From the NCBI RefSeq assembly GCF_003464085.1, contig NZ_QSDR01000008.1, positions 1-64,000 on the forward strand: a stretch of 64,000 nucleotides of DNA, given 5' to 3'. The position numbers were made by a program, and so were the translations under genes. Source of the DNA: Clostridium sp. AM58-1XD (lineage in GTDB: Bacteria; Bacillota; Clostridia; Lachnospirales; Lachnospiraceae). Within the stretch, counting starts at the first letter, position 1, and the number at the start of each line of letters is the position of its first letter. Positions 20,663 through 62,914 of this stretch are shown piece after piece. The notes under the pieces are model-generated. The model did no database searches. It was not told the origin of the DNA and was given only the letters and a program-made list of their open reading frames with translations.

Positions 20663-22014
20663 ATGCTGGATAAACTGTTTATTAATGGCACAATTGTAAC
20701 TAAGGATTCCCGGTTTGCGGGAAATATCGGAATTACAGGAGAAAAGATCACACATATTCTATCTCCTGACGTACAGCCTGAGGCAAAAGAGGTGATTGAT
20801 TTATCAGGAAAATATGTACTTCCCGGAATGATTGATGCCCATGTTCATTTTGAGGACCCAGGTCATACGGACAGGGAAGACATGCTTCACGGTACTGCGG
20901 CCTGTGCAGCGGGCGGCGTTACGACCGTTGTGCTGATGCCTACAAATGATCCTCTTATTTTTACATTAGATGCATATAAGAAAAATCTCGAGGCCTATAA
21001 AGACAGAGCATACGTGGACTATGGCATTCACGGAGCCTGGACGCCGGCAGTTTCTCTCATGCGCGGGAGCTTTGGCGGGAAAGCGGCGTCACTGCCATCA
21101 AAGTTTTTATGTGCTACGCCTCTGCAAATATGGGATTTGTTACAGATAAGACTCTGTATGAGACTCTGGAACTGGCAAAGGAAGAAGATGCCATCGTCAT
21201 TATTCACTGTGAAAATGATGAAATTATTAAAATGAACGAAGAGCGCATGAAAGCTGCCGGAAGAACCGACCGGCTTTCCTTCAATCACAGCCGTCCGGGC
21301 TTTGGAGAAGTGGAAGCAATCCGGCGCGCCCTGTTTTTTGCCAAGCAGACCGGCGCCAGGGTAATGATTCCCCATGTGTCTACAGCAGAGGGGCTCCTGG
21401 AGGTTCGCCGAGCAAAGGAAGAAGGAGTGCATGTGTGGGCGGAAAGCTGCCCTCAATACTTTACCTTCACCACTGACGACTTTGAAAAGCAGGGCCCGTA
21501 TCTTAAATTTACTCCTGTCATGCACGAAGAGGAAAACCGGCTCCTCATGTGGGATTTAATCGGAAAGGGGTATGTCGACTCCATTGGTTCCGATCACTCC
21601 CCATTTACGGTCGCGGAAAAAGAAGCAGGAAGCGATAACATCTGGAAGGCGCCCAATGGCATCCCAGGTCTGGAAGCGGAACTGGCTGTATTCCTGCAGG
21701 GAGTTAATGAAGGAAAACTCTCTCTGGAAGACGTCGTGAGAATGACAAGCTATAATCCTGCCCATATCTACCGTCTGCCTTCCAAGGGCGAGATTCGGAC
21801 TGGATATGATGCTGATTTAACTATCGTGGATCTCAGTCTGGAAAAGGAATTTACAAAAGAAACGATTCACTCAAAATGTCCATGGTCTCCCTATATGGGG
21901 CGTACCTTTAAGGGCTGGCCGGTAATGACGGTTGTCCGCGGACAGATTGTAGCCAAGGACGGCAAACTGCTGGGAAGTCCTTCTCACGGTAAACATATCT
22001 GCAGAGAAAAATAA
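20663..22014 (+). pseudogene. Allantoinase / dihydroorotase-like amidohydrolase, one-base frameshift
   Basis: Cyclic-amide hydrolase of about 450 residues. The first part has the metal motif GMIDAHVHFEDPGHTDRED; the second has AIKVFM with the lysine expected to be carbamylated, HCENDE, IPHVST and SIGSDHSPF. The parts are in different frames, broken near 21065-21067 in a GGG run; one extra G gives MRGELWRESGVTAIKV. Both halves are otherwise complete, so I infer a sequencing error. The family splits ureides, hydantoins or dihydroorotate; with an NCS1 permease allantoin or a hydantoin is the likely substrate. It is not obviously the pyrimidine PyrC, as no pyr genes are near. Confidence 0.82.
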
Positions 22015-22173: not shown

Positions 22174-25100
22174 TCATTTTGCTTTTAAATAATAGTCATA
22201 CTGGCCGCGAAACGACTCATACTCCTCCGGATTGCACTGCTGCTCCTTGAAAATGACCCCTAGCAGCCCCGGCTCCAAACGGATCTCCATAAAATTCATC
22301 GTTTCTCCTTCGGCCAACCGGCCGATCACCAGAAGTTTCTCCTTATCCTGGTCACTTTGTAACACGCGGTTTAAGGCTTCTCCTGCATCCAGGATATTCT
22401 CAAAATCATACAGATTCCATTCGTTATATTGAATCAGGCAGTCCCATTTCTCTAAACCGGCTTCCTCACCCTGCCGGCCGGCAACCAGCCCGCTAATCCT
22501 GATCATGTAATAGTCCCTGTATATCTCGCTGCCGCTGCTGTCATAGAGTATCCGCTGCTGCTCCCGGCCGCAGGCATCATATCGATACTCAACCCTGCAC
22601 GCCTCCTCTTTGATCAGCTCCCCTTTGTCATCGTAGAATATGGAGGACAGCCTCCAACCCTGGGGGCTGTACTCTATGACTGCCCGAAAGAACCCCTTCC
22701 CTGCCATGGCCGGCTCTCCGTTCTTGTCATAATATCTGAATTCCACTATATTTCCCCGGGAATCGTACTCAAACACAACTTTGGCGTAACCGTCGGAGCT
22801 TTCGCACAAGTCTCCTGCTTTATCATAGTACGCTTCTTCCAGCTGATTGCCCACCTTATCAAATACCCACTTCGCTTTGTAATATCCTGTGACAATATCA
22901 GTGGGACGGCCGTCTTTATCTTCATAGAAAATTTCCGTACAGTTTCCCCTGTCATCGTAGATGGAACGCATAGTATAAAGTATATTTTTCTTAACCGGAA
23001 CGCCCTTTTCCCCATAGTAAATTCTGGCGGCAATTCTGTTTTTCCCGTCATATTCGTCCCGCCTGGCCGCGTATCCGGAAGCGGCGACCGGATGTCCGGC
23101 ATCGTCAAACATCCGCATCAGTACCAGCCGGTTCTGCTCATCGTAAGAGTAGGAATAAAGAGCCACCCCATCCTCATCAGACCAGGAATTTCCATCTGCA
23201 TCCAGATAACTCTCCGCTGTCAGATTGTCCCACTTGTCATATTCATGTACCAGTGTGGTGTAGGAAGACGGTTCAGGAAACATTCCGCTTTTTGATATCT
23301 TAGTGACACGCACACAGTTTCCGCGGCCGTCGTAGCTGTATTCCAGCCGCTCAGCCCCCGGCATTCCATCGAAAGCCGGGGTAAGCTCTCCGTCCACATC
23401 GTGGTAGGACCGCTCCGTCTCGTTTCCGTAACTGTCGTAGGCGTATCTTATGGCCGCATATCCGCTGGATATCCGCATGGGGCTTTCCTGAGTGTCAAAG
23501 TAGGCTTCCTCTGCACAGTTTCCTGTAGCGTCATATTCCATGCGCATCATATGGTATCCCAGTTTCCCGATCACCGGCTGTCCCAGTTCGTCAAAGTAGG
23601 CTTCAGAGATTCTATTGCCGCCCTCATCATACTCGCAGGTGACACTGGCACTGCCATCGATGCACATGCATGGGTTACCGCTCTCATCCAGATACAGGGT
23701 TTCTAACAGGTTTCCGTTTCTGTCGTATGCGTACTGGATCACAGCATAGTTTTCTTTGCCGCGAACCGGCTCTCCCTGCTCGTCAAAAAAAGACTGCTTC
23801 ACGATTCTTCCTGTCTCATCGCGCTTCGTTCTTTCAGTAGCATAGCCGAATTTTGACAGGACCGGCTGCTCATTCTCATCCAGATAAGTTACTAAAGACA
23901 AGTTGCCGTCTTCGTCATATTCATACCGGGCGCCGCTGACGCCGGTGCTGTTTTCATAAACCGGAGCTCCTTCTTGATCCAGCACCTGATACCACACGAT
24001 CCGGTCCTTACTGTCATATTTATATCTGATCTTTGCGTAGCCCCAATTGTTGCTCATCGGCTGCATATCGGCGTCATAGTAGCATATTTCATTCTGATTC
24101 CTATTCTCATCGTAAAAAGCAGCAGTTCCGTGAGTACCCGTTAACTTTTCAAATATCGGCTCACCACTCTCGTCAAAGTACCTCTGGCTTACAGTAAATC
24201 CATCCGAATCATAGGTAAGTTTCGAAAACGCCCCCTCAGATTTAGAGTTGAAGAGTTTCCCGTTCTCATCCAGATAGTCCCATTCTACCGCATTGCCGAT
24301 TTCATCGTAGACCAGGCTTGTGGTAACATAACCGTTTTCTCCCGGTATTGGGTTTTCCTCTACGTCAAAATAGCTGGCCGTCACCTGGCGTCCCATGGCA
24401 TCGTAAGTGTATTTAACACCGGCTATTCCGTACCGGGAACTCTTTGGCCGGCCGTTTTCATCCAAGTACACGATCTTTACAATTTTCCCTTCTGCATCCC
24501 GCTCATAGCGCTTTCCGCAAATTCCGTTCGCATCCCTGGCCGGTGTGTTTAAGTTGTCACGCATATAAAGCTCCTGGATCAGGTAGCCGTTCTCATCGTA
24601 TGTATTTAAATGTCTGGTGATCTGGCTCTTGGGGGAATTCTGGTATCTGTTCATACCTGAGCTGTAGTATATGTCGTCCAAGTCTGTCTGATTGGAGGCC
24701 AGCGTCATGACCTGGCTGCTGTCGCCGGACTGCAAAAAATCCACTGCCTTCAGATTGGAAGTGTAGTCCTTGACCATCACCTCCCGTCCGTTCTCATCCC
24801 TGTACTCCACTCTGGAGAGCTGATCCTCCTCGTAAAAAAAGTTGGCCGTTACTGGCGCTTCCTCATTAGCGGTATAGGTAGAGATCATTGGCTTACCGAT
24901 GGAATTTTGACACTCCAGGCTGACAACCTTTCCCTTTTTCGTCACGATCTGATAGCTGGCGTAAAGGCTTTTCCTTTCTTTGCCAGACAGGCGGCCTATC
25001 CCAACAGGCACCTCATTTTTGTAGAGATAGTCCCTGTAGTAGGCGCTGTGAGGCAGTTCGTACCACAGGCCGGCCGCTGACGCTGCCATTGCCAGAATGG

Positions 25101-25662
25101 CTGATGCAGCCGCCAGGAGCCGCCATTTTAACTGCCTCTTGCGATCCCGCATGATAAGCTGATCAAATTTCAGGGAGAGCAGCGTAGCCTCCACCCGCAA
25201 AAATGCCTTCCGTTTGCCGAGTTCCTCCACACTGATCCCCAAAAGCTCCGACTGGACATCTGCCCGCAGCGCTTCCGGGAAACATTCCCGCTTCGGGTCT
25301 GCTGCATTTGGCTCCCCGCCCACCACGAACGGGATGATATAGTCCTCTCGCCCCAACCTGATAAAATGCCTGATCTCCTCGTTGACCCAGGAGGATTTAG
25401 CGCTGTTCTGTGAACAGATGACAATCAGGAATCTGGAATCCTCCAGCTCCTTATGTAACTGGTTTAACACTTTTCCGCCTATCAGATCGGTCTTATCGCG
25501 AAAGACTGGGTATATCTTTTCCGGCACATCCTGGTGCTGTCTGCGGATCACCAACGGGATCCGGTAGGTCTCCAACTGCCGCTGCAGCCATCCTGCCCAA
25601 TATTCATCTTCTCTCTTATAACTGATGAATGCGTAAAACTCAAACGTTCTATTCTCCGCCAT
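22174..25662 (-). CDS. TIR domain - transmembrane - YD-like repeat - PDZ-like protein
   Basis: A 1162-residue protein. Residues 6-155 form a TIR domain: FYAFISYKREDE opening, VFRDKTDL, FLIVICSQNSAKSSWVNEEI. Trp92 with Glu96 fits the WxxxE pattern of NAD-hydrolysing TIRs. A single membrane segment (about 181-200) follows a basic stretch (RDRKRQLK). From about residue 350 to 1050 there are some 22 units of about 32 residues, each near YDxxGN...YxDxxGxP...GYA, like RHS/YD or toxin-WG repeats. The last 100 residues (ISGLVAGRQGEEAGLEKWD) look PDZ-like. The basic stretch predicts a cytoplasmic TIR and outer repeats. It stands alone between two operons. It could be a sensor for defence or envelope stress; this is inference. 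Confidence 0.85.
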   Translation of the reverse strand: MAENRTFEFYAFISYKREDEYWAGWLQRQLETYRIPLVIRRQHQDVPEKIYPVFRDKTDLIGGKVLNQLHKELEDSRFLIVICSQNSAKSSWVNEEIRHFIRLGREDYIIPFVVGGEPNAADPKRECFPEALRADVQSELLGISVEELGKRKAFLRVEATLLSLKFDQLIMRDRKRQLKWRLLAAASAILAMAASAAGLWYELPHSAYYRDYLYKNEVPVGIGRLSGKERKSLYASYQIVTKKGKVVSLECQNSIGKPMISTYTANEEAPVTANFFYEEDQLSRVEYRDENGREVMVKDYTSNLKAVDFLQSGDSSQVMTLASNQTDLDDIYYSSGMNRYQNSPKSQITRHLNTYDENGYLIQELYMRDNLNTPARDANGICGKRYERDAEGKIVKIVYLDENGRPKSSRYGIAGVKYTYDAMGRQVTASYFDVEENPIPGENGYVTTSLVYDEIGNAVEWDYLDENGKLFNSKSEGAFSKLTYDSDGFTVSQRYFDESGEPIFEKLTGTHGTAAFYDENRNQNEICYYDADMQPMSNNWGYAKIRYKYDSKDRIVWYQVLDQEGAPVYENSTGVSGARYEYDEDGNLSLVTYLDENEQPVLSKFGYATERTKRDETGRIVKQSFFDEQGEPVRGKENYAVIQYAYDRNGNLLETLYLDESGNPCMCIDGSASVTCEYDEGGNRISEAYFDELGQPVIGKLGYHMMRMEYDATGNCAEEAYFDTQESPMRISSGYAAIRYAYDSYGNETERSYHDVDGELTPAFDGMPGAERLEYSYDGRGNCVRVTKISKSGMFPEPSSYTTLVHEYDKWDNLTAESYLDADGNSWSDEDGVALYSYSYDEQNRLVLMRMFDDAGHPVAASGYAARRDEYDGKNRIAARIYYGEKGVPVKKNILYTMRSIYDDRGNCTEIFYEDKDGRPTDIVTGYYKAKWVFDKVGNQLEEAYYDKAGDLCESSDGYAKVVFEYDSRGNIVEFRYYDKNGEPAMAGKGFFRAVIEYSPQGWRLSSIFYDDKGELIKEEACRVEYRYDACGREQQRILYDSSGSEIYRDYYMIRISGLVAGRQGEEAGLEKWDCLIQYNEWNLYDFENILDAGEALNRVLQSDQDKEKLLVIGRLAEGETMNFMEIRLEPGLLGVIFKEQQCNPEEYESFRGQYDYYLKAK

Positions 25663-29229: not shown

Positions 29230-30635
29230 TTATATGTTCATATCATCCTGTTCTCTTCTCAGCTTCCAGAGCATGCTGTCCTTTGGCTCTTCGACCATAT
29301 CGTAAGTTATCACAGTCCCTTTAGGCACATCACAGACCAGTTTTTTTCCATTTAACATGTGCGCCGGTATCGGTCCTCTCCCTTTCACCGGAGATTTCGC
29401 CACCATATGGGTCAAAAGCCGTGTATCGTGATCGCTTCCCATAATCTCGCCCTTTTTCAGATCGGTCTTTGCTTCCTGAACAATGTCGTATCTTTGTTCA
29501 TAAACTCTTGAACCCGTCCCCACATGGAGCAGACCTGCACATAATAGTGTACTGGAAGCTTCCACTCCACATAAATGGTAAGGCCGGTAAATCAGGGATA
29601 CTTCTCCATCCGAACTGCTCAGACAGCCTTTCGTTGCCAATATCATCTGTGAATATGGATTCGCGCTGTGAACTGTTAAAAAGACTCCGCCTCCAAGACC
29701 TGCTTCCCCTTTTTCATGAAGATTTGTCACAACCTCTATCACGCCTTTTTTCGTAAGGATGCCTCCATTCTTCTTTTCACATAGAACCTTCGGTATTTCA
29801 GGCGTCCTCAGATTTCGTCATATAGCAAAGAAGTATCAGGTTCAAGTCCGGAAGAATTTGCTGCTATGACCATTTCGCAGAGATCGAAGCCGCCTCTTGG
29901 ATCCAGTTCATGAAGCAGATCTTTTCTCTTTTTCAAAAAAGTTCCTATTTCTTCATCGGTCATGGTCTCCATATACCGGCATTCCTCTTTCGACAGCATT
30001 GCTGTTACCGTCTCAGGAATCGTGATTCCCCCATCACAGTATACCGTAACCGTACCGGCTTCTCTGTCATAAATAAATTCTGCATCCCGGCTTTTTCCTG
30101 CGCAGATTACTTCCAGGCCCAAATCTCTCGCCCATTCAATCATCTGCATTAGAGCTCCATGCTGGTCACCGTCAACCGGTGTACAGACGACGTTCTTTTC
30201 TTCTGCCTTTTTTCTTAATATGGGGCCCACACAGGAATCCACTTCTTTATTTACCATAACCACGTTTTTCCCGCGTTCAATTGCCGCCATGCAGTATCTT
30301 GCACCTGCTTCAGGATTACCGGTTGCCTCTACGATTGTATCTAATGGGATTTCCATAAGAATCATCGGGTCTGTTGCTGCAATTACCTTTCCGGTGCCCC
30401 ACCAGGATTTCGCTTCCTCTGCCGTTTCGCAAACGGCTATGTTCTCTTTTGGAATTCCTGCTTTTTCAGCAGCCGTCCATATGGCCGACATATTTCTGTC
30501 TGCAATGGCTGCAATCGCGAGCTGTTCCTGCATAGCTGACTGCCCGATCACTGCAATGCCAAAATGCCCCGTACCGATCAGCCCGGCAGTCGTTACCTCT
30601 CCCTTATGTCTGTCATATAAATTGTGATAAATCAT
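29230..30635 (-). pseudogene. NAD(P)-binding homoserine-dehydrogenase-like oxidoreductase with SAF domain, one-base frameshift
   Basis: First gene of the operon. The N-terminal part has a Rossmann fold (TAGLIGTGHFGIAVIG), a catalytic region (VEATGNPEAGARY, MVNKEVDSCVGPIL) like homoserine dehydrogenase, and a middle domain. The C-terminal part (KGEIMGSDHDTRLLT, LVCDVPKGTVITYDMV) is SAF-like. They are in different frames; the break is near 29810-29812, where one extra C restores LYDEILRTPEIPKVLCEKK. The restored length is near 468 residues. The start at 30635 has AGGAGG 9 bases upstream. Proteins of this class are common near TRAP and TTT transporters, with unknown substrate. Confidence 0.8.
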
Positions 30636-30726
30636 CTTATTCTCCTCCTGGTTCCAGCTGTACATCATTTATGGCCATTTGATCTCATGCTGTTATTTAT
30701 CTCTTTCCTTATCTGACCATATATAC

Positions 30727-51032: not shown

Positions 51033-51061
51033 ATTATATTATATGAAAACTTTTGTGTCAA
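51033..51061 (-). promoter_or_regulatory. Consensus promoter of rplM-rpsI
   Basis: TTGACA and TATAAT, both perfect, spacer 17. It overlaps the last codons of truA, so rplM-rpsI can be expressed without the ecf-truA operon. Confidence 0.88.
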
Positions 51062-52229
51062 CCCATTTTTCCAGAAAAATCAAGTAAAATCGTAGGAAAT
51101 CAGGCCTTTTTTCCATCTTCCGCAATAAATACGGGCAGTCGGGCCAGTTCTCAGCGGCCCTTGGGTTTTTAAGTTCCGGAATCCTATCCAAAGCGGAAAG
51201 ATCAGAAGGTTCCATGCCTCCCCAAAATAGCTCTCCATCCGCTTCTCTTCTCATGCGGTAGTACCCGTACATTCCCTCTTTCACACCCGATTTTCCAAGA
51301 TCCGCTACCATAACGCGCGCAGCTCCGTTTCGGAAAGCCTGGTGGATCACGCGTTTCATCACACCTGCCAGCTCTTCTTCCGTACTCCTGTGAAGAAAGA
51401 GATACGCCGTTTTGTCTGATGGAATGTGGGTCTGCAGCACATCATAGCTCCAGTACTTATTCTTTCCGGAAAGAAACGTCCTCAGCTCTTTTTCATATTC
51501 CAGCCCTATGAGGGTCAGGCCTTTTGCCGCCACTTTCTGACCGGCCTGCTGACGGTCCCTGGCATCCAGAATCTCTTCCACATGCTCCGGAGGATAAGCG
51601 CCCATACCGACTTTGATCAGCGTACCTGCAATAATGCGTACCATATTATACAGAAAACCGCTTCCGCTGATCCGAATGGTAATGATATCGTCATGAGACT
51701 TCGTCACATCCAGACTGTATATGGTTCTCACCGTTTCCTCAGCCTGAGTGCGAACGGTGCAGAAGCTTTTGAAGTCGTGTTCTCCCAGGAAATAAGAAGC
51801 CGCTGCCTTCATTTTTTCCACATCCAGCGGAAAATAGCAGAAATGTGTGTAACGCCTCCATACAGGCATATCAATTTTCCTGTTTAATATCTTGTATTCA
51901 TATGTTTTCACGCAGTTTTGTTTCCTGGGATGCCAGCCTGCCGGCACTTCTATGGAGCTTTGAACTCTAATATCCTCCGGAAGCCTCTGATTCAGTGCAT
52001 AACAGATTTTATCAGCGGGAATTCTGCTTTCCGTATCGAATACAGCCACGTTTCCCATCGCGTGAACGCCTGAGTCCGTTCGGCTGGCCCCTATTACAGC
52101 AACAGGCTCTTTCAGAAGATCTGAAAGAGCTTTATTTAATACTTCTTCAATTGTCACCCCATTGGGCTGCAGCTGCCATCCGCAGTATTTTGTACCGTCG
52201 TAGGCAACTACCAGTTTTACACGTTTCAT
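51039..52229 (-). CDS. truA: tRNA pseudouridine(38-40) synthase TruA with long C-terminal extension
   Basis: Residues 1-245 form a complete TruA: VVAYDGTKYCGWQLQPNGVT, the catalytic Asp52 in GASRTDSGVHAMGN, and SGSGFLYNMVRIIAGTL. The enzyme isomerises U38-U40 of tRNAs. After residue 250 about 145 extra residues follow (KYWSYDVLQTHIPSDKTAYL, NGAARVMVADLGKSG) that I cannot assign. Normal TruA is near 250 residues, so 396 is unusual. The last codons overlap the rplM promoter. It follows ecfT after 70 bases. Confidence 0.92.
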   Translation of the reverse strand: MKRVKLVVAYDGTKYCGWQLQPNGVTIEEVLNKALSDLLKEPVAVIGASRTDSGVHAMGNVAVFDTESRIPADKICYALNQRLPEDIRVQSSIEVPAGWHPRKQNCVKTYEYKILNRKIDMPVWRRYTHFCYFPLDVEKMKAAASYFLGEHDFKSFCTVRTQAEETVRTIYSLDVTKSHDDIITIRISGSGFLYNMVRIIAGTLIKVGMGAYPPEHVEEILDARDRQQAGQKVAAKGLTLIGLEYEKELRTFLSGKNKYWSYDVLQTHIPSDKTAYLFLHRSTEEELAGVMKRVIHQAFRNGAARVMVADLGKSGVKEGMYGYYRMRREADGELFWGGMEPSDLSALDRIPELKNPRAAENWPDCPYLLRKMEKRPDFLRFYLIFLEKWVDTKVFI

Positions 52230-55112: not shown

Positions 55113-55151
55113 AAAAGCCGGCTGTCGTATCTGTGATTACAACAGCCGGCC
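55113..55151 (-). terminator. Terminator of the sulfatase-TTT-maturase operon
   Basis: GCCGGCTGT and ACAGCCGGC pair perfectly around a 16-base loop, and TTTTATG follows on the minus strand. It lies 40 bases past the maturase stop. Confidence 0.8.
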
Positions 55152-55190
55152 TGTTTTATTATGATATCAGAAAGAGCCGTTTGAAACGGG

Positions 55191-56282
55191 TCACCTTCCA
55201 TTAAACGCCATTGCAGCAGTCTCCAACCGCCTAATCGCATAATCGAAAAATCCCTTGTAGCTCTGGCAGAAGATATTCTTCCCCTCCTCTCTGTCGCGGC
55301 GGCAGCCTCCCTTGCACACCAGCCTCCATTCACAGCCCAGACACGTTTCTCCCAGGGCAGAACCAGCAATAAATTTTTCTGCCGTTTCCCCCGACCGCAT
55401 CTCTTCCCAGGAATGGTCTTTGATATTGCCCAGGCACCATTCATCTGTCATGTAAAAATCACATGGGTACACGCTGCCGTCAGCCTCTACGGCAAACTGA
55501 CAGCTGCATCGTTCTTTCATTGTACATAATTCCGGTACCTCTCCTGCCAGTATGGCCAGGTAATTGTCGATATGGCGGATACTGATATACTTCCCCTTTT
55601 GAAAATCCTGAAACCACAGATCAAATATGGTCTTTAGAAAGCTTTCAAATGCCTGATCGGAAAGGGCATATGCCCCTCTCTCTTTGCCGGACGGTTCCAT
55701 ACACGGAATAAATTGTATATGAGAAAACTCCTGTTTTTTACAATATTCATAAATTTTCATTCCATACCTCGCAGAAGCAGAAGTAACAACGCAGAGTATG
55801 TTATATGGAACGCCATACCTGGTCAGCAGGCTGCATGCACTGCGGACTTTGCCGTACGTGCCTTTCCCATCGCCATCTATCCGCATCTGATTATGTATTT
55901 CTGCCGGACCATCCAGGGAAATCCCAACGAGAAAATGATTTCTCCTGAAAAACTCTGCCCATTCCTCGTTCAGATGTATCCCATTTGTCTGAACTGCATA
56001 ACTGACCTTTCTATTTTTCTTATTGCAGGATCGTACCGTCTCCGTAAACCAGCGATAAAAGTCCAGACCTCTCAAAAGCGGTTCGCCTCCCTGAAAAGCG
56101 AAGCAGCAGGAAAGAACCTGTTCTTCCATAACACGTTTAATGATTACTTCAGCTGTCTCCGTATCCATCATACCGCAGTTTTTTACATTCCGCTTTTCGG
56201 TGATATCATGATAAAAACAGTATCTGCAGCGCAGATCACAAAGCCCGGAGGCAGGTTTTATCATGACTGTTATGTTTCGCAC
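55191..56282 (-). CDS. Anaerobic sulfatase-maturating radical SAM enzyme (anSME)
   Basis: A 363-residue radical SAM/SPASM enzyme. The cluster motif is CDLRCRYC (Cys15, 19, 22). QGGEPLLRGL and SLDGPAEIHN follow, and the C-terminal SPASM cysteines appear in CSCQF...YPCDFY and CLGCEWRLVCKGGCRRD. This class oxidises an active-site Cys or Ser of sulfatases to formylglycine without oxygen. A sulfatase with CMPAR is encoded in the same operon, so enzyme and target are paired. It follows tctC after 23 bases. Confidence 0.94.
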   Translation of the reverse strand: MRNITVMIKPASGLCDLRCRYCFYHDITEKRNVKNCGMMDTETAEVIIKRVMEEQVLSCCFAFQGGEPLLRGLDFYRWFTETVRSCNKKNRKVSYAVQTNGIHLNEEWAEFFRRNHFLVGISLDGPAEIHNQMRIDGDGKGTYGKVRSACSLLTRYGVPYNILCVVTSASARYGMKIYEYCKKQEFSHIQFIPCMEPSGKERGAYALSDQAFESFLKTIFDLWFQDFQKGKYISIRHIDNYLAILAGEVPELCTMKERCSCQFAVEADGSVYPCDFYMTDEWCLGNIKDHSWEEMRSGETAEKFIAGSALGETCLGCEWRLVCKGGCRRDREEGKNIFCQSYKGFFDYAIRRLETAAMAFNGR

Positions 56283-56305
56283 TGCTTTTCCTCCATTTTC
56301 TTTAT

Positions 56306-57358
56306 CTATTTCTCCGCCAGGATCGTATCCTGATAATCCTTCATATAAGTTGCCGCCTCTTCAGCTGGTATATATAGCGGAGTGAGCATATTTTTCTCGA
56401 TGTAATCGTTCTTCCACTCCTCCGTTTCCGCTACCTTTCCCATCGTATCACTCCAGAATTGCACAGCCTCATCCGGCATGGAAGCCGGACCGACTATTCC
56501 CCTCCAGATAGGAGCTTCTATGTCCTCAAGCCCTGTAACCTCGGAAAGAAGCGGGACCTCGGAAAGACTTCCTCCAAATCGTTCCTTTGCTAACGCCGCT
56601 TCTGCCTCTACATCGCCTGATTCCATATACTGAATGCTGGATGCCGGTTTCGATATGCAGTAATCGATGTGGCCGCCTAAAAGGGAAGTAATGGCATCCG
56701 AAGTGGCGTCATACATGATATAAGTCAGCTGTTTATCTGTCAGCCCGGAAACAGAAAGCAGCATATTATATAGCCTGTAATCCTCCCCCTTAGAGCCCCC
56801 GACCGTAACTTTCGTTCCATCCTTTGCCGCCTGAATCGCAGTTTTCAAATCTGCATACGGCGTTGCTTTTCCTTTCAGCAGCAAATGCCTGTCCACCGCC
56901 ATAACTGCAATCGGTCTGAAATTTTCAATTCTGTTATCCGTATTCGTAACCATTGGTACAAGATCCCCGCTGTTGAATGTGAGCAGCAGGTGGCCGTCGC
57001 TCTTCTCCTGGCTGACCCTGAGGCGTCCCACTTCACCTCCTCCATCCGTCTGGTTATTAACCAGAATCGTCTGATCTACAAGCCCCTCTTTTTTCATAAT
57101 GTCTGAGATCATTCTTGTGTAGATATCACTGCCGCCGCCTGCGCTGGATGTCACGACCCATTCAATATTTTTTTCCGGTTTCCAGGCATTTTCCCGGCCG
57201 CTCTCTTCCTGCCCTGTTTCCTTCTCCCCTGTCTGAACCGCCTGTGCTGCCTCTGTCTTTGGGGTGTCTGTCTTCGAAGTTTCCTTCCCTGTCCCTGAAC
57301 ATCCAGCTGTTGCTGCCATACACATCCATACTGCCGCCCCTAAAATCATTTTTTTCAT
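56306..57358 (-). CDS. tctC: TctC-family substrate-binding lipoprotein, module 2
   Basis: A 350-residue Bug-type binding protein. Lipobox TAGC ends the signal peptide; a Thr/Glu/Lys-rich linker follows. VVTSSAGGGSDIYTRMISDI is the first ligand loop, FNSGDLVPM the second. The start at 57358 is three bases after the tctA stop. It resembles the module 1 TctC only in plan, so a different ligand is likely. Confidence 0.94.
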   Translation of the reverse strand: MKKMILGAAVWMCMAATAGCSGTGKETSKTDTPKTEAAQAVQTGEKETGQEESGRENAWKPEKNIEWVVTSSAGGGSDIYTRMISDIMKKEGLVDQTILVNNQTDGGGEVGRLRVSQEKSDGHLLLTFNSGDLVPMVTNTDNRIENFRPIAVMAVDRHLLLKGKATPYADLKTAIQAAKDGTKVTVGGSKGEDYRLYNMLLSVSGLTDKQLTYIMYDATSDAITSLLGGHIDYCISKPASSIQYMESGDVEAEAALAKERFGGSLSEVPLLSEVTGLEDIEAPIWRGIVGPASMPDEAVQFWSDTMGKVAETEEWKNDYIEKNMLTPLYIPAEEAATYMKDYQDTILAEK

Positions 57359-57360
57359 AA

Positions 57361-58856
57361 TCAGTTCTCCTTTCGCATTCTCCCCCGCGCTGCGCGGATA
57401 GTCGGTATCATAATCAAAACAATCAGTACGCACATGAACACTGCTGATATGGGATGCTGGAAGAAGATCATGGGACTTCCTCCCGACATCAGAAATGCCC
57501 TTCTCAAATTCGTCTCGAAAATCTTAGACAGCACAATAGCCAGAACAAGCGGAGCCGTAGGATAATCGCAGCAATTCATAAGATATCCCAGGCATCCGGC
57601 CAAGAGCATGACAATCACCCCATAAATGGAATTGGTTGCGCTGAATGAGCCTACAATGCAGACTGTGGTAATCGCAGGAATCATATATCTTGTTGGTACG
57701 GACAGTATTTTTACGAGGAATGGAATAATGCAAAATGCAATTCCCAACGTAATAATATTTGCAAGGAACAACGAGGCAATCAGCCCCCATACGAAATCAG
57801 GATTCGTTGTGAACAAAAGCGGTCCTGGATTCAGTCCCCACATCATCAGTCCGCCCAGCAGCACGGCTCCCGTTCCTGATCCCGGTATTCCCAAGGCAAG
57901 AAGAGGAGAAAATGCCCCTGCCGCCGCGGCATTGTTCGCCGCTTCACATGCTGCAATTCCTTCTACAGCCCCTGTACCAAGAGGCTCAGCACTTTTAAAC
58001 TTCTTCTGCACCGCGTAACCTGCAAATGCTCCCGTCGTGGCTCCGGCTCCCGGCAGTATTCCGATAAACGTTCCCAAAATTCCTGACCGGATCGCAACAG
58101 GCAGCAGCCGTCTGAAATCAGAGGATGTTATAAAACTGTCCTTTAACCGCAGCTTCACGGTTACCGGAGGTCGTTCTTCTCTCTTCCCCATCAGGCTCAT
58201 AACCCTTGAAAAGCCAACAATACCGATGACAAGCGGTGTAAATGGAATGCCGCCCAGCAGATACGTATTTCCGAAATGGTATCTGGGCGTGCCAGTCACG
58301 GCATCCATTCCAATACATGCAATCAGGATTCCGGTCAGGGATGATATGATTCCTTTCGTGGGATTCTCTCCCATCAACCATCCGATCGAAGTCATCGCCA
58401 CCAGCAGAAGGGCCGCCATTTCCACCGGGCCGAAGTTCAGCCCCAGCCTGGCCAGCATAGGGCCGGTAAACGCGAGGATAATCATGCCGATCAGACCGCC
58501 CAGGAAGGAGGAAATATTGGCTGTAAACAGCGCCTGTCCCGGCCGTCCTTTCTGAGCCATGGGATATCCGTCCAGAGACGTCATAACTGCCGGACCGTCG
58601 CCGGGGATATTAATCAGAATTGCGCTGTAGCTCCGCCAAACATATTGGAATAATAAAGCGCTCCCAACATGATAATTGCCGTCGTCGGATTAAACTTGTA
58701 CGTGAGCGGAAGCAGCAATGCAACTCCTGCCAGGCTTCCGATTCCCGGCATGGCTCCGACTATAATTCCCAGCATGGCTCCCAGGGCTGCAGCTCCTATG
58801 TTCTGCACGGTCAGCGCCACCTGAAATCCCCGGAACAATAAGTTCAGATTTTCCAT
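57361..58856 (-). pseudogene. tctA: TctA-family large membrane subunit, module 2, one-base frameshift
   Basis: TTT permease subunit of about 498 residues. The first 80 residues (GAMPGIGSLAGVALLLPLTY) end in FGGATAQF and stop; the rest starts at NIPGDGPAVMTSLDGYPM in another frame. One base missing near 58630 (minus strand GCTACAGC) would restore GGAYSAILINIPGD. The second motif GILPGAGATTGAFAGY and ACEAANNAAAAGAFSPLLALG are intact. Ten to twelve helices overall. Works with TctB and TctC on either side. Confidence 0.88.
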
Positions 58857-58869
58857 ACCTGCCTCCTTT

Positions 58870-59319
58870 CTAGTACTTTATAAAGTTTCCCAACATGCCC
58901 CTGGGAAACTGGATTCCCAGCCATACGGAAAAGATCATCCATGCTGCCCCTCCAACACATACAGTCAACAGCAGCGTCTGTTTCCATCCCGCCTTTTCGA
59001 TCCATTTCATCCAGATCGCAAGATAGAGGAAGATTGCCGGAATCATCCCCACCACATATGAGGCAGCCAGAATCCCGACAGCAGCAAGGGCGACCTTAAT
59101 GTCGTCCTTTTTCAACTCCGGTACGTCTTCCTTCCAGGACTGTCCAAAGGCCAGGACGCTGACTATCAGCAGCATTCCTGCAATCAGGGATGGATAAAAT
59201 CCACCTACCGGGCCTTTCACCTCGTCCCAAAATCCGAATTTGCTGATCCCAAGGTAGAGAAATACAGCAGCCGCAGCTATGGTACACAGCGGAAAATTTT
59301 TCATGTTCAGCCTCTTCAC
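58870..59319 (-). CDS. tctB: TctB-family small membrane subunit, module 2
   Basis: A 149-residue protein with four membrane segments (LCTIAAAAVFLYLGI, GFYPSLIAGMLLIVSVLAFG, VALAAVGILAASYVVGMIP, TLLLTVCVGGAAWMIFSVW) and the GPVGGFYP motif. Its ATG overlaps the sulfatase stop by four bases, coupling transporter and sulfatase translation. Confidence 0.9.
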   Translation of the reverse strand: MKRLNMKNFPLCTIAAAAVFLYLGISKFGFWDEVKGPVGGFYPSLIAGMLLIVSVLAFGQSWKEDVPELKKDDIKVALAAVGILAASYVVGMIPAIFLYLAIWMKWIEKAGWKQTLLLTVCVGGAAWMIFSVWLGIQFPRGMLGNFIKY

Positions 59320-60802
59320 GTCGTATCCTCCTCTCTCAGCCTGTACCGCACGAATACTTCCTCAGGGACACTGTTTTCTTCCATAATATGAATCATATGT
59401 TCACGCATCATTTTAGCGATTTTCTCATCTTCCATATTCCGGTTCATACTCCTGTCTTCCTTCAGGTCAAACAGGAAATCCCCCAGATTCATCTGTCCTG
59501 ACTGTGTCTTTGGTTTTATCTTTTTGACCTTCAGTACAGGGTAGCCATTCGTAAAGCCAAACGGTCCTGTCAGCCTGGCCTTCTCCATTTCCTCCCTTGT
59601 AAATCCCTGGCACATGTGAGAACAGTTCAGCGTATAATTAAAAAGCTCATCATTTTCCGGGTCCGGAGCGCGCATGTATACGTATCTTCCATCCGTACAG
59701 TTGATATTGCCGCCATGACTTCCATATGCGACTGCCTCATGAATTTTTTGATCTCCCTGGATCACAGTCTGCAAATCCTTTCCCATGACACTTTCAGGTA
59801 CAGGAACCTGAAAATATTGATAAATGGTTGGCGCCAGGTCTATTGTCTGGACCAGTGCATACCTCGTTTCACCTACTTTTTTGTGTCTTGGATCCCATAT
59901 AAATAAGGGGATGTTGGCAATTTCATTATATGTAGGACCTACATTTTTCCCCCACCAGTCATGTTCTCCCAGCATAAATCCGTGATCCGTATTTACAATC
60001 AGCATTGTGTCATCCCACATATTTTTCTCATCCATCCAATCCAGCAATTTACCCAGATTCCTGTCGCACATGGAAAGCAACGCCGCATACTGGCAGCGTA
60101 TATGTTCTCTGGCGCCGTCCGGATCATCCTCCTGAATCTTCCTGTAAGGCGGCCAGTCAAAAAACGGGCCCTTATAATCATGAGGATATAAATCTTTATA
60201 CTTCTGCTGGGTAAAAAAGGGTTCATGAGGATCGAGCATTCGATCTGGAGCATCCAGTTGTCACAATCGCTGTTTTCTTTTAAAAAATCTAAGGCCAGCC
60301 CCCATGTTACCGTCTGCGGCTGTTTCTCTTCACAGTCCATGTATCCGCGGTTTACCCAGTCCTGCCTCCATCTGTGGGTAGGCCTGGCGATCACCTCTTT
60401 AGGAATTGAGGGGTCCTTCAGATTCGCTTTCCATTTGTCTCCTTCCTGTCCTCTGACAATTTCCCAGGTTCCGAAATGTGTGTGGTAATTAGCGCCTCCC
60501 TCTTCCCAGTAGTGATAGTGATCGCTGATTAAATGAGTATGAATTCCGTTTTTCATCAAATTTTCAGGAAGCGAGTCGTCAAACGGCTCTAACGGCCCCC
60601 AGCTTCTCGTAAAAAAATTATATCGCCCCGTATGCATCTCCCGCCTCGCCGGCATGCATGGCAGGCTTCCCACATAACAATTTTCAAATTTTAAAGTATG
60701 CTCTGCCAGCCTTTGAAAATTTGGAGTTCTCGTCCACTCACATCCGTACGGCTGAAGCATATTTTTTACCAATGAATCGTACATCAGAATAATTGCTCTC
60801 AT
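59316..60802 (-). pseudogene. Type I sulfatase, one-base frameshift
   Basis: Alkaline-phosphatase-fold sulfatase of about 495 residues. CMPAR (Cys49) fits the CxPxR motif in which Cys becomes formylglycine. Metal sites are seen in MYDSL and NTDHGFMLGEHDWWGK. There is no signal peptide, so it is cytoplasmic. The frame breaks near 60237-60240 at ATCGAATGC; one extra A gives LQIEMLDPHEPFF, and the second part runs on to a normal stop. First gene behind the sigma-54 promoter; the maturase is the last gene. The substrate is unknown. Confidence 0.88.
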
Positions 60803-60850
60803 ACCTTCGATCCTTTCTGAAATAGAAATCAGGTTTCTACCTAAATATAA

Positions 60851-60866
60851 AGCAATTCATATGCCA
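60851..60866 (-). promoter_or_regulatory. Sigma-54 (-24/-12) promoter of the sulfatase operon
   Basis: TGGCATATGAATTGCT on the minus strand matches TGGCAC-N5-TTGCW with exact spacing; the same single base of the -24 box differs as in the module 1 promoter. It is 49 bases upstream of the sulfatase start. Confidence 0.85.
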
Positions 60867-60874
60867 AAAAGTGC

Positions 60875-60925
60875 AAAAAGAGCAGGATTATTTATTATTT
60901 CTGATAATCCTACTCTTTTTGCTTT
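60875..60925 (-). terminator. Terminator of the second PrpR-type activator
   Basis: AGTAGGATTA / TAATCCTGCT stem with flanking AGAG/CTCT and T5 on the minus strand. It lies between the activator and the sigma-54 promoter, as in module 1. Confidence 0.78.
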
Positions 60926-61005
60926 ATTTACTGTTTTTTTACTACTATTTCACGATCAGTAGTCCCTTTTCCGCTTCATTTCATCGGGAAAACTGCCTGA
61001 TGATT

Positions 61006-61036
61006 TTCAAAACGAAAATTTATTTTTCATTTTGAA
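61006..61036 (-). promoter_or_regulatory. Long dyad, possible enhancer site
   Basis: TTCAAAACGAAAA and TTTTCATTTTGAA are inverted repeats with 12 of 13 positions matching, five bases apart. It overlaps the activator stop codon and lies about 140-170 bases upstream of the -24 box, fitting an activator site. Confidence 0.5.
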
Positions 61037-62914
61037 TTTCCCATTCCTTCATTCTGCGCCATAGGGTAGTTGCACTGATCCCCAGTTCTCCGGCGGCTTT
61101 CTCTTTATTCCCACCGTTTCTTTGCAACGCTTTTAGAATCATCCGTTTCTCTGTTTCTTCCAGCGTCTGTATGTTTTTTTCCGCCTCAGCATGATAAACT
61201 GTCTTAGAATTCCTTCGGCTTTTATCTGATAAAATCTCTTCTGTTACATATTCTATCCCACCTTCACCAGGCTGACCGTTCAGAACTGCTATCCTTTCCA
61301 AAATATTTTCCAGCTCCCGTACGTTTCCTTCCCATGGTCGCTTCTGAAACAGGCATATCTCTTCTTCACTGAAATCAGGCCGGCTAATCTGCAGTCTGTG
61401 CGAAATCTTATCCGTCAGATATTGGATCAGCATGGGATATCATCTGCCCGCTCTCTCAGGGGCGGAATATGGAGGTTCAGAATATTCAGCCGATAATACA
61501 AGTCTCTCCGGAATGTTCCTCTTTCCATTTTTTCTTCCAGGTTCGCAAGAGTAGCCGCTATGACACGCACATGAACAGGAATTGCCTCGCTGCTGCCAAC
61601 CCTCATAATTTCCTTTTCCTGCAGCACACGCAGGAGCTTAGCCTGCAGCTGTGCCGGAAGCTCGCCAATTTCATCCAGAAATATGGTGCCGCCTTCCGCC
61701 GCTTCAAATAGCCCCTTTTTTCCGGAGCGCAGCGCTCCTGTAAATGCTCCCGGCTCGTACCCGAACAGTTCACTTTCCAAAATACTTTCTGGAATTGCAG
61801 AACAGTTTACTGCTATAAATGGCTGGTCTCTCCGGTAACTCGCATTGTGGATGCTTTGAGCGAAAAGCTCTTTGCCCGTGCCCGTCTCTCCGGTAATCAG
61901 AATCGTAGAGTTTGTCTTTGCATATAAAACGGCGTGACGGATCAGTTTTTTCATACCGTCATTTCGGGTTACGATATCTGAAAACATGTATTTCGCCGTT
62001 TTCTTACCTTCAGGGCTGTACGTTCGCATTCTCGAATGAAGCATTTCGATCACATCGGAATCGTAAATCTGTATCATTTTTCCTTCAAACGTATTGTCCA
62101 GACAGACTGAGGAATATGTCTGAAGAAAACATTTTTTCTTAAATGTAAACGCCGTATATATTCCATACGTGTCATCTTTTGTTTTTCCTGCTGACGACAG
62201 CATCGGCAGCACGTCTTCCAGGCGTTTATTTAAAATGGCAGCCTGATCGGCTGCCATCATTCTGCAAGCGCTGTCATTGACATAAAACACTTCATTCGCC
62301 TGGTCTAGTATGATAATTCCTTCCTGAAGACTCTGAAACATCTCCAGCCCATAGCTGCCTCTGGCTCTCACCACGGCCTTCTCTATGGCTGTAAAAACAG
62401 AATCTCTCCCTGACTGAAGAGAAACGGTCTTCATTCCTTCCTGCTGGGCAAAATATACAGGAGCCACGCCGCCTGCGATTACGTCGAATCCGTCTGCCTT
62501 CGCCTTCTGGATCGCATCAATTAGCAGTCCGTTCGGCGGAATCCTTATGACATCCACGTCTATGGACAACATCTCTCTGATTCTGTTTAAATCATATTCC
62601 AGAACCGTATTGATGCTGATTCCCACTTTCTTTCCCAATGATTTCGCCAGCGTGACAGCCTCAGCAATATCCTGGAAACTGATTTCTATAGGCACTGCCG
62701 TCACTCCGGCCTCCCGTTCAATTGCCTTGGCCATGCCGCCGCGGCTGATGAACACTTTGATGCCGTTTTCCTTGTACTTTTTAGCAAATTCAACGGCAAC
62801 GCTGTTGTTCACACAGTAAATGACTCTGCACGGCCACTTTCTTTTCCTGCACTCTTCCTCTGCGATATCAGCAATTTCTCTCTGAGGCGCCAACAGTACG
62901 CAGCATTCTTTCAT
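61020..62914 (-). pseudogene. PrpR-type sigma-54-dependent activator, module 2, one-base frameshift
   Basis: Activator of about 631 residues. PrpR_N domain (KVFISRGGMAKAIE, DVIAGGVAPVYFAQQEG), PAS domain (SLQEGIIILDQANEVFYVN), AAA+ domain (GETGTGKE; ESELFGYEPGAFTGA with the GAFTGA loop; LDEIGEL) and a Fis-type helix-turn-helix (KAAGELGISATTLWRRMKE). The frame breaks near 61434-61436 in a GGG run (plus strand); one more base restores RADDIPMLIQYLTDKI. The gene directly precedes the sulfatase operon and most likely activates it on sensing the substrate. Confidence 0.87.

Follow-up and report, generated by a model that had tools for sequence, protein, structure and literature searches.

Why should genes for a sulfatase, a solute transporter and a sulfatase maturase lie together behind what looks like a sigma-54 promoter? 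The question is raised by the minus strand of a 64,000-nucleotide stretch of Clostridium sp. AM58-1XD DNA (contig NZ_QSDR01000008.1, positions 1 to 64,000; hereafter, "the window"). We propose, with a probability of about 0.6, that this operon allows the cell to import a small sulfated carboxylate through a tripartite tricarboxylate transporter (TTT) and to desulfate it in the cytoplasm, and that it is induced by a sigma-54 activator. The features, in the order of transcription, are these:

61427..62914, minus strand: PrpR_N/sigma-54 activator, larger open piece (PrpR_N, PAS, Sigma54_activat; domain models)
61020..61433, minus strand: activator, C-terminal piece lying in a different frame, with AAA lid and Fis-type helix-turn-helix, HTH (domain models)
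60873..60922, minus strand: activator-gene terminator with a perfect stem of 19 bp and a T-rich 3' arm (z -6.2)
60851..60866, minus strand: sigma-54 (-24/-12) promoter-like site, TGGCAT-N5-TTGCT, 48 nt upstream of the sulfatase ATG
59999..60802, minus strand: sulfatase, N-terminal piece with CMPAR, frame lost before the listed end (domain models)
59316..60239, minus strand: sulfatase, C-terminal piece lying in a different frame, with the TDHG motif and the SGSH_C region (domain models)
58870..59319, minus strand: tctB, GTG start (PF07331)
57361..58856, minus strand: tctA, frame-broken, main open piece 57361-58584 (PF01970 on the larger piece)
56306..57358, minus strand: tctC, solute-binding lipoprotein of 350 aa (PF03401)
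55191..56282, minus strand: anaerobic sulfatase maturase (radical SAM/SPASM), GTG start (family models)
55113..55152, minus strand: terminator hairpin 3' of the maturase (z -9.8)

All of the genes, their order and their strand had been proposed in a sequence-only reading of this DNA, and domain and family models bear them out. TctA, TctB and TctC are all encoded (matches to PF01970, PF07331 and PF03401) and make up a complete TTT. The tight spacing described earlier is also found, the junctions from sulfatase to maturase being a 4-nt overlap and gaps of 13, 2 and 23 nt. The overlap of sulfatase and tctB had been given as ATGA; it is actually GTGA, with tctB starting at GTG. The earlier gene list was right in its contents but overlooked that the activator, the sulfatase and tctA have one frame break each, with the reading open on either side of the break.

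Both pieces of the sulfatase score above the cut-off of PF00884, for which an intact relative from Candidatus Epulonipiscium fishelsonii gives 110.3 bits. The sulfatase-type region PF16347 is also matched, as are NCBIfam sulfatase models, the latter below their cut-offs. The pieces carry the CMPAR (C-x-P-x-R) and TDHG motifs, and residues C49, P51, R53, D9, D273 and H274 are invariant across 10 aligned relatives; by domain and motifs, the enzyme is most likely a type I (formylglycine) sulfatase. Its predicted structure is weak (pLDDT 60.4). The start of the protein sits at the first catalytic strand and leaves no space for a leader; the alignment to the best-matching PDB entry, 5g2v, sets its residue 32 opposite residue 4 of P0001, a relative. 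A secreted sulfatase was rejected for lack of a leader, and the earlier description of a cytoplasmic enzyme without a signal peptide stands. The maturase, likewise recognized earlier, has the radical SAM/SPASM match and scores 360.8 bits with TIGR03942 (cut-off 349.45), though slightly below the cut-off of NF010321 (426.9 bits against 441). A contig profile search with the C-terminal sulfatase piece returned among its matches (41 loci) only relatives 46-53% identical, and no relative was found in viral contigs scanned with the sulfatase and TctC alignments. As a separate observation, all five Lokiarchaeia/Lokiarchaeota loci from this contig search (L015, L022, L025, L029 and L034) have a maturase-like stretch (32-39%) after the sulfatase on the same strand.

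The -24/-12 promoter predicted ahead of the sulfatase is a perfect instance of the consensus pattern, which occurs twice in the window against 0.22 expected; 0 of 100 shuffles reach two. Upstream of it, the sequence-only reading saw a long dyad and a terminator. The stem is there, but we read the two as a single feature, the activator's terminator, because it has a T-rich end and stops 6 nt before the -24 element. By the same judgement, the dyad was rejected as a binding site for the activator. The terminator called after the maturase was confirmed. The activator itself, over its two pieces, matches PrpR_N, PAS, Sigma54_activat and a Fis-type HTH, and the PrpR-type assignment made earlier agrees with this. 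With TIGR02329, the model for PrpR proper, the two pieces of the broken gene score 308.2 and 59.5 bits (cut-off 499.2). The protein resembles the propionate activator PrpR in its PrpR_N, sigma-54 and Fis-type HTH domains; no propionate genes, however, were recognized near the window operon.

Is this arrangement found elsewhere? In an order-level sample of 392 genomes, 20 had the sulfatase at E <= 1e-120, and one near relative emerged (locus L185 of genome G835). This is Ca. E. fishelsonii, a fish-gut bacterium, in which sulfatase, TctB, TctA and TctC occur in the window's order with every frame open. The sulfatase, an open frame of 493 aa, is 81% identical to that of the window over the first 189 residues of the N-terminal piece and 64% over the C-terminal piece; TctB is 47%, TctA 74% (main piece) and TctC 64% identical. 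Two -24/-12 sites are present, the first 69 nt upstream of the ATG of the sulfatase and the other ahead of a pdxA gene some 5 kb past tctC. Thus the expectation that the order would be kept in related genomes is upheld for this distant relative. Of the combined operon, sulfatase and TTT recur there, whereas the maturase (45% identical) is not within the operon but divergent, just upstream. Among the best 120 sulfatase relatives and the best 120 TctC relatives, contigs of 25818, 29229 and 315471 bases turn up on both sides, and three further contigs therefore probably hold both genes, although pairing by equal contig size is indirect. A 12984-base size is likewise common to the listed TctC and activator relatives. 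Only long equal-sized contigs were counted, because a size of 2229 bases, shared by sulfatase P0013 and activator P0242 yet too short for both genes, demonstrates that equal size can mislead.

The sulfatase family also meets TTTs of other lineages. In a family-level sample, 24 of 299 genomes had it at E <= 1e-60, giving 42 scored loci (the best few candidates per genome only; 5 of 54 in the TTT-rich genome G637). A TctA lies within 10 kb of the sulfatase at 6 of these 42 loci, against 0.60 expected (P 4e-5, with loci treated as independent), so that the association of sulfatase and transporter seen earlier in the window holds above chance in other genomes. The TctA proteins concerned share only about 33-36% identity with that of the window, and several TTT lineages have thus met this sulfatase family. 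Their arrangements are as follows:

L101: sulfatase, TctC, TctB, TctA, maturase (a five-gene run, in another TTT lineage)
L099: sulfatase, TctC, TctB, TctA, second sulfatase
L103: TctC, TctA, sulfatase
L134: TctC, TctB, TctA, sulfatase, UPF0261, class II aldolase
L115/L151: TctC, TctB, TctA, UlaG-type lactonase, AraD-type epimerase, TIM barrel, transketolase halves, three more genes, sulfatase
L112: TctC, TctB-like open reading frame, TctA, methylguanine-methyltransferase-type open reading frames, then sulfatase, FGGY kinase, UlaG, FG-GAP protein, UlaE, AraD type

What, then, might the transporter carry? The fold predicted for TctC at modest confidence (pLDDT 68.6) resembles TTT binding proteins for malate, terephthalate and oxoadipate, a likeness that tells of fold only. 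The available part of a TTT review states that known ligands, nicotinic acid aside, carry a pair of carboxylates or else other groups, sulfate and amide among them, and that they include galactarate/glucarate and sulfolactate (PMC5812351). Further clues come from the company kept by the nearest TTT relatives, namely PrpR_N activators, rpoN, PdxA, a 2-hydroxyacid dehydrogenase, transketolase halves and TIM-barrel isomerases; family models confirmed the rpoN of L213, the transketolase halves, the dehydrogenase and the TctB of L099. The operon contig of E. fishelsonii also carries a 2-hydroxyacid dehydrogenase (66%), transketolase halves (57% and 63%) and racemase-like and TIM-barrel genes, so its dehydrogenase, transketolase, TIM-barrel and PdxA genes are of the same kinds as those beside the nearest TTT relatives. 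Exact -24/-12 sites are rare on the whole. By first-order Markov resampling, L185 has two in 16.9 kb (0.05 expected), L150 has four (0.06 expected) and L213 has one (0.06 expected; 10 of 200 resamples reach one). Loci L090-L138 give a comparison rate of two in 726 kb, and the remaining TTT-sulfatase loci examined have no exact site.

We infer the substrate, the direction of transport, the sensing and induction, and the enzyme activity as follows. The TctC lipoprotein, together with TctA and TctB, would bring a small sulfated carboxylate into the cell; such a dianion is of the sort that TTT binding proteins favor. The anaerobic maturase would convert the active-site Cys of CMPAR to formylglycine, and the cytoplasmic type I sulfatase would strip the sulfate from the imported acid. 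The PrpR_N-type activator would sense a carboxylate and, with RpoN, open the -24/-12 promoter. The freed acid would probably be sugar-acid-like and degraded by enzymes encoded elsewhere.

Several observations weigh against this proposal. No catabolic enzyme adjoins the window operon. The operon of E. fishelsonii has no activator adjacent to it; the sole PrpR_N activator found in that genome is on another contig, beside rpoN. BLAST finds no match between the N-terminal ~300 residues of the window activator and the E. fishelsonii activator (first 310 residues), nor the activators of L149 or L213; the same region of the window's second activator does match all three. With G637 set aside, the excess of TctA neighbors shrinks to 2 loci where 0.11 would be expected (P 6e-3), and both neighbor P values take loci as independent. 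A TctA match occurs in 7 of the 60 loci read from the family and order samples, L185 included; the other 53 have none in the stretch read (some stretches are short contigs), and the sulfatase family is therefore not tied to TTTs generally. No TctA was found in a separate set of 9 loci, nor in the 41 loci from the search with the C-terminal piece. Finally, three of the operon's genes (activator, sulfatase and tctA) are frame-broken in the window sequence.

In a rival explanation the genes are co-transcribed but have separate roles: the TTT would import some ordinary sugar acid, while the sulfatase would serve sulfur scavenging or act on a different imported compound under the same inducer. The two nearest TTT relatives among 397 genomes (L149 and L150) have no sulfatase in the stretch read, and the sulfatase family is often located elsewhere, for example beside phosphotransferase system (PTS) genes in Enterobacter. 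The window itself holds a second PrpR_N/TTT system of this kind, whose TctA is 55% identical to those of L149 and L150:

26129..32665, minus strand: second system, without a sulfatase; PrpR_N activator 32665-30866, -24/-12 site 30742-30727
downstream of that promoter, minus strand: split DRL oxidoreductase 30668-29230, then tctC, tctB and tctA

We nonetheless consider separate roles unlikely, given that E. fishelsonii keeps sulfatase and TctC in a single run, that three more contigs probably hold both, and that other TTT lineages lie near the same sulfatase family more often than chance would have it.

It is more improbable still that the operon is decaying, with three genuine breaks and a system that is dead in the source strain. 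The activator, sulfatase and tctA do all lose frame, and a sulfatase consisting of the C-terminal half only (P0002) is on a 3.32 Mb contig whose size, 3320486 bases, is also that of the contig bearing a Lachnoclostridium edouardi activator (59%). Against this, both sides of every break stay open, and intact relatives of the broken genes exist: activator P0242 (624 aa, 84% identical), sulfatase P0001 (82% over the C-terminal piece) and tctA in L185 (74%). Further, other conserved genes of the window, namely ispD (1572-2416), an amidohydrolase (20663-22014) and the DRL oxidoreductase (29230-30668), are broken in like manner, and a cell would scarcely do without a housekeeping gene like ispD. For these reasons, decay was rejected as the main account; sequence error appears the likelier source of the breaks.

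Weakest of all, and very improbable in our estimation, is a reading in which the formylglycine enzyme hydrolyzes phosphonate monoesters or phosphodiesters and the TTT imports a phosphorus compound: its PDB relatives, all distant, include the phosphonate monoester hydrolases 4upk and 2w8s besides sulfatases, but the PF00884 and PF16347 regions and (below cut-off) the NCBIfam sulfatase models match, and a maturase is beside the window sulfatase and near it in several relatives, a weak argument because phosphonate hydrolases of the sulfatase fold also require formylglycine.

How does the proposed importer of a sulfated carboxylate compare with known systems? Choline sulfatase (betC) likewise works in the cytoplasm, on a small sulfate ester that has been imported; the window pieces differ from it, scoring 36.5 and 62.6 bits with TIGR03417 (cut-off 433.45). 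Sulfolactate is a sulfonate (C-S bond), unlike a sulfate ester. The proposed uptake nevertheless resembles that by the sulfolactate TTT SlcHFG and the galactarate/glucarate TctABC, which, in the available part of the review, import acids with a second acidic group, galactarate and glucarate being sugar acids (PMC5812351); the word "sulfatase" is absent from that part. As for gene clusters, the available portion of PMC9239261 describes the ats1 and ats2 glycosulfatase clusters of Bifidobacterium breve, in which, as in the window, a sulfatase, an anaerobic maturase, a transporter and a transcriptional regulator occur together. The window operon differs in having a TTT and a sigma-54 activator. 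The transporter and regulator of the B. breve clusters are reportedly of other kinds. No description of a TTT in a sulfatase cluster was found in open PMC papers among the matches listed, and within that scope the earlier statement that no such combination had been described holds. Because the B. breve clusters are described and none with a TTT was found, we take the operon as a variation on a known plan, in which the TTT and sigma-54 activator are new. Of the papers considered as leads and set aside, one on fluoroacetate (PMC10838667) has, in its accessible part, no bearing, and the enzyme in that of one on acesulfame (PMC10413263) is of MBL type, with an ABC importer.

The enterobacterial sulfatase WP_006808784.1 (near ibpAB and dgo genes), which we take to be YidJ, belongs to the same family (52% identical to P0001). 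Its locus has PTS IIC/IIB and aryl-sulfate sulfotransferase genes, with no TTT annotated in the stretch shown. The matches listed for YidJ and sulfatase contained nothing on YidJ function. In Enterobacter locus L153 (4465-9485), a family member is beside PTS IIC/IIB and an aryl-sulfate sulfotransferase.

The loci of G637 provide a lead of another kind. At two of them, UlaG-type L-ascorbate-6-phosphate lactonases score 648.9 and 543.5 bits (cut-off 306); AraD-type epimerases are present at both, and a UlaE-type one also in L112. The sulfatase, TTT and UlaG genes span 9606-15143 in L112 and 1147-8855 in L151 with 7776-16668 in L115. We regard these loci as a lead for the use of ascorbate 2-sulfate. 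No papers were found for ascorbate 2-sulfate with bacteria and sulfatase; ascorbate 2-sulfate alone gave metabolite or association studies, and UlaG with sulfatase nothing on point, among the matches listed. Tentatively, a TTT with a leaderless sulfatase may constitute an unnamed class of importer for sulfate esters of sugar acids or lactones, one to which different TTT lineages perhaps gave rise on several occasions. The branch in the window could be sigma-54-switched and feed a PdxA/transketolase-type sugar-acid route; another branch, with ascorbate-6-phosphate-lactonase-type genes, might use ascorbate sulfate. We hold this wider idea as doubtful but possible.

Elsewhere in the window, positions 22174-25662 encode a protein of 1162 aa that has RHS repeats and, at its N terminus, a TIR domain. 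TruA (51039-52229) has 396 aa with a C-terminal extension. Compared with 25 genomes of one related genus, it shows 64-69% identity in every case (25 of 25); there the open frame measures 345-360 aa in 24 and 428 aa in one, and a frame break may have lengthened the window protein. This similarity of TruA, along with the named relatives from Lachnoclostridium edouardi, suggests a bacterium of Lachnospiraceae type. The window sequence seems rich in small errors.

Sulfated small molecules reach gut bacteria from the host, the diet and algae. To our knowledge, bacterial desulfation acts mostly on glycans. The clusters suggest sulfated sugar acids as candidate substrates and, for the UlaG-linked relatives, ascorbate 2-sulfate. 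If our proposal is true, it would assign a class of substrates both to orphan TTT binding proteins and to a large, uncharacterized sulfatase family.

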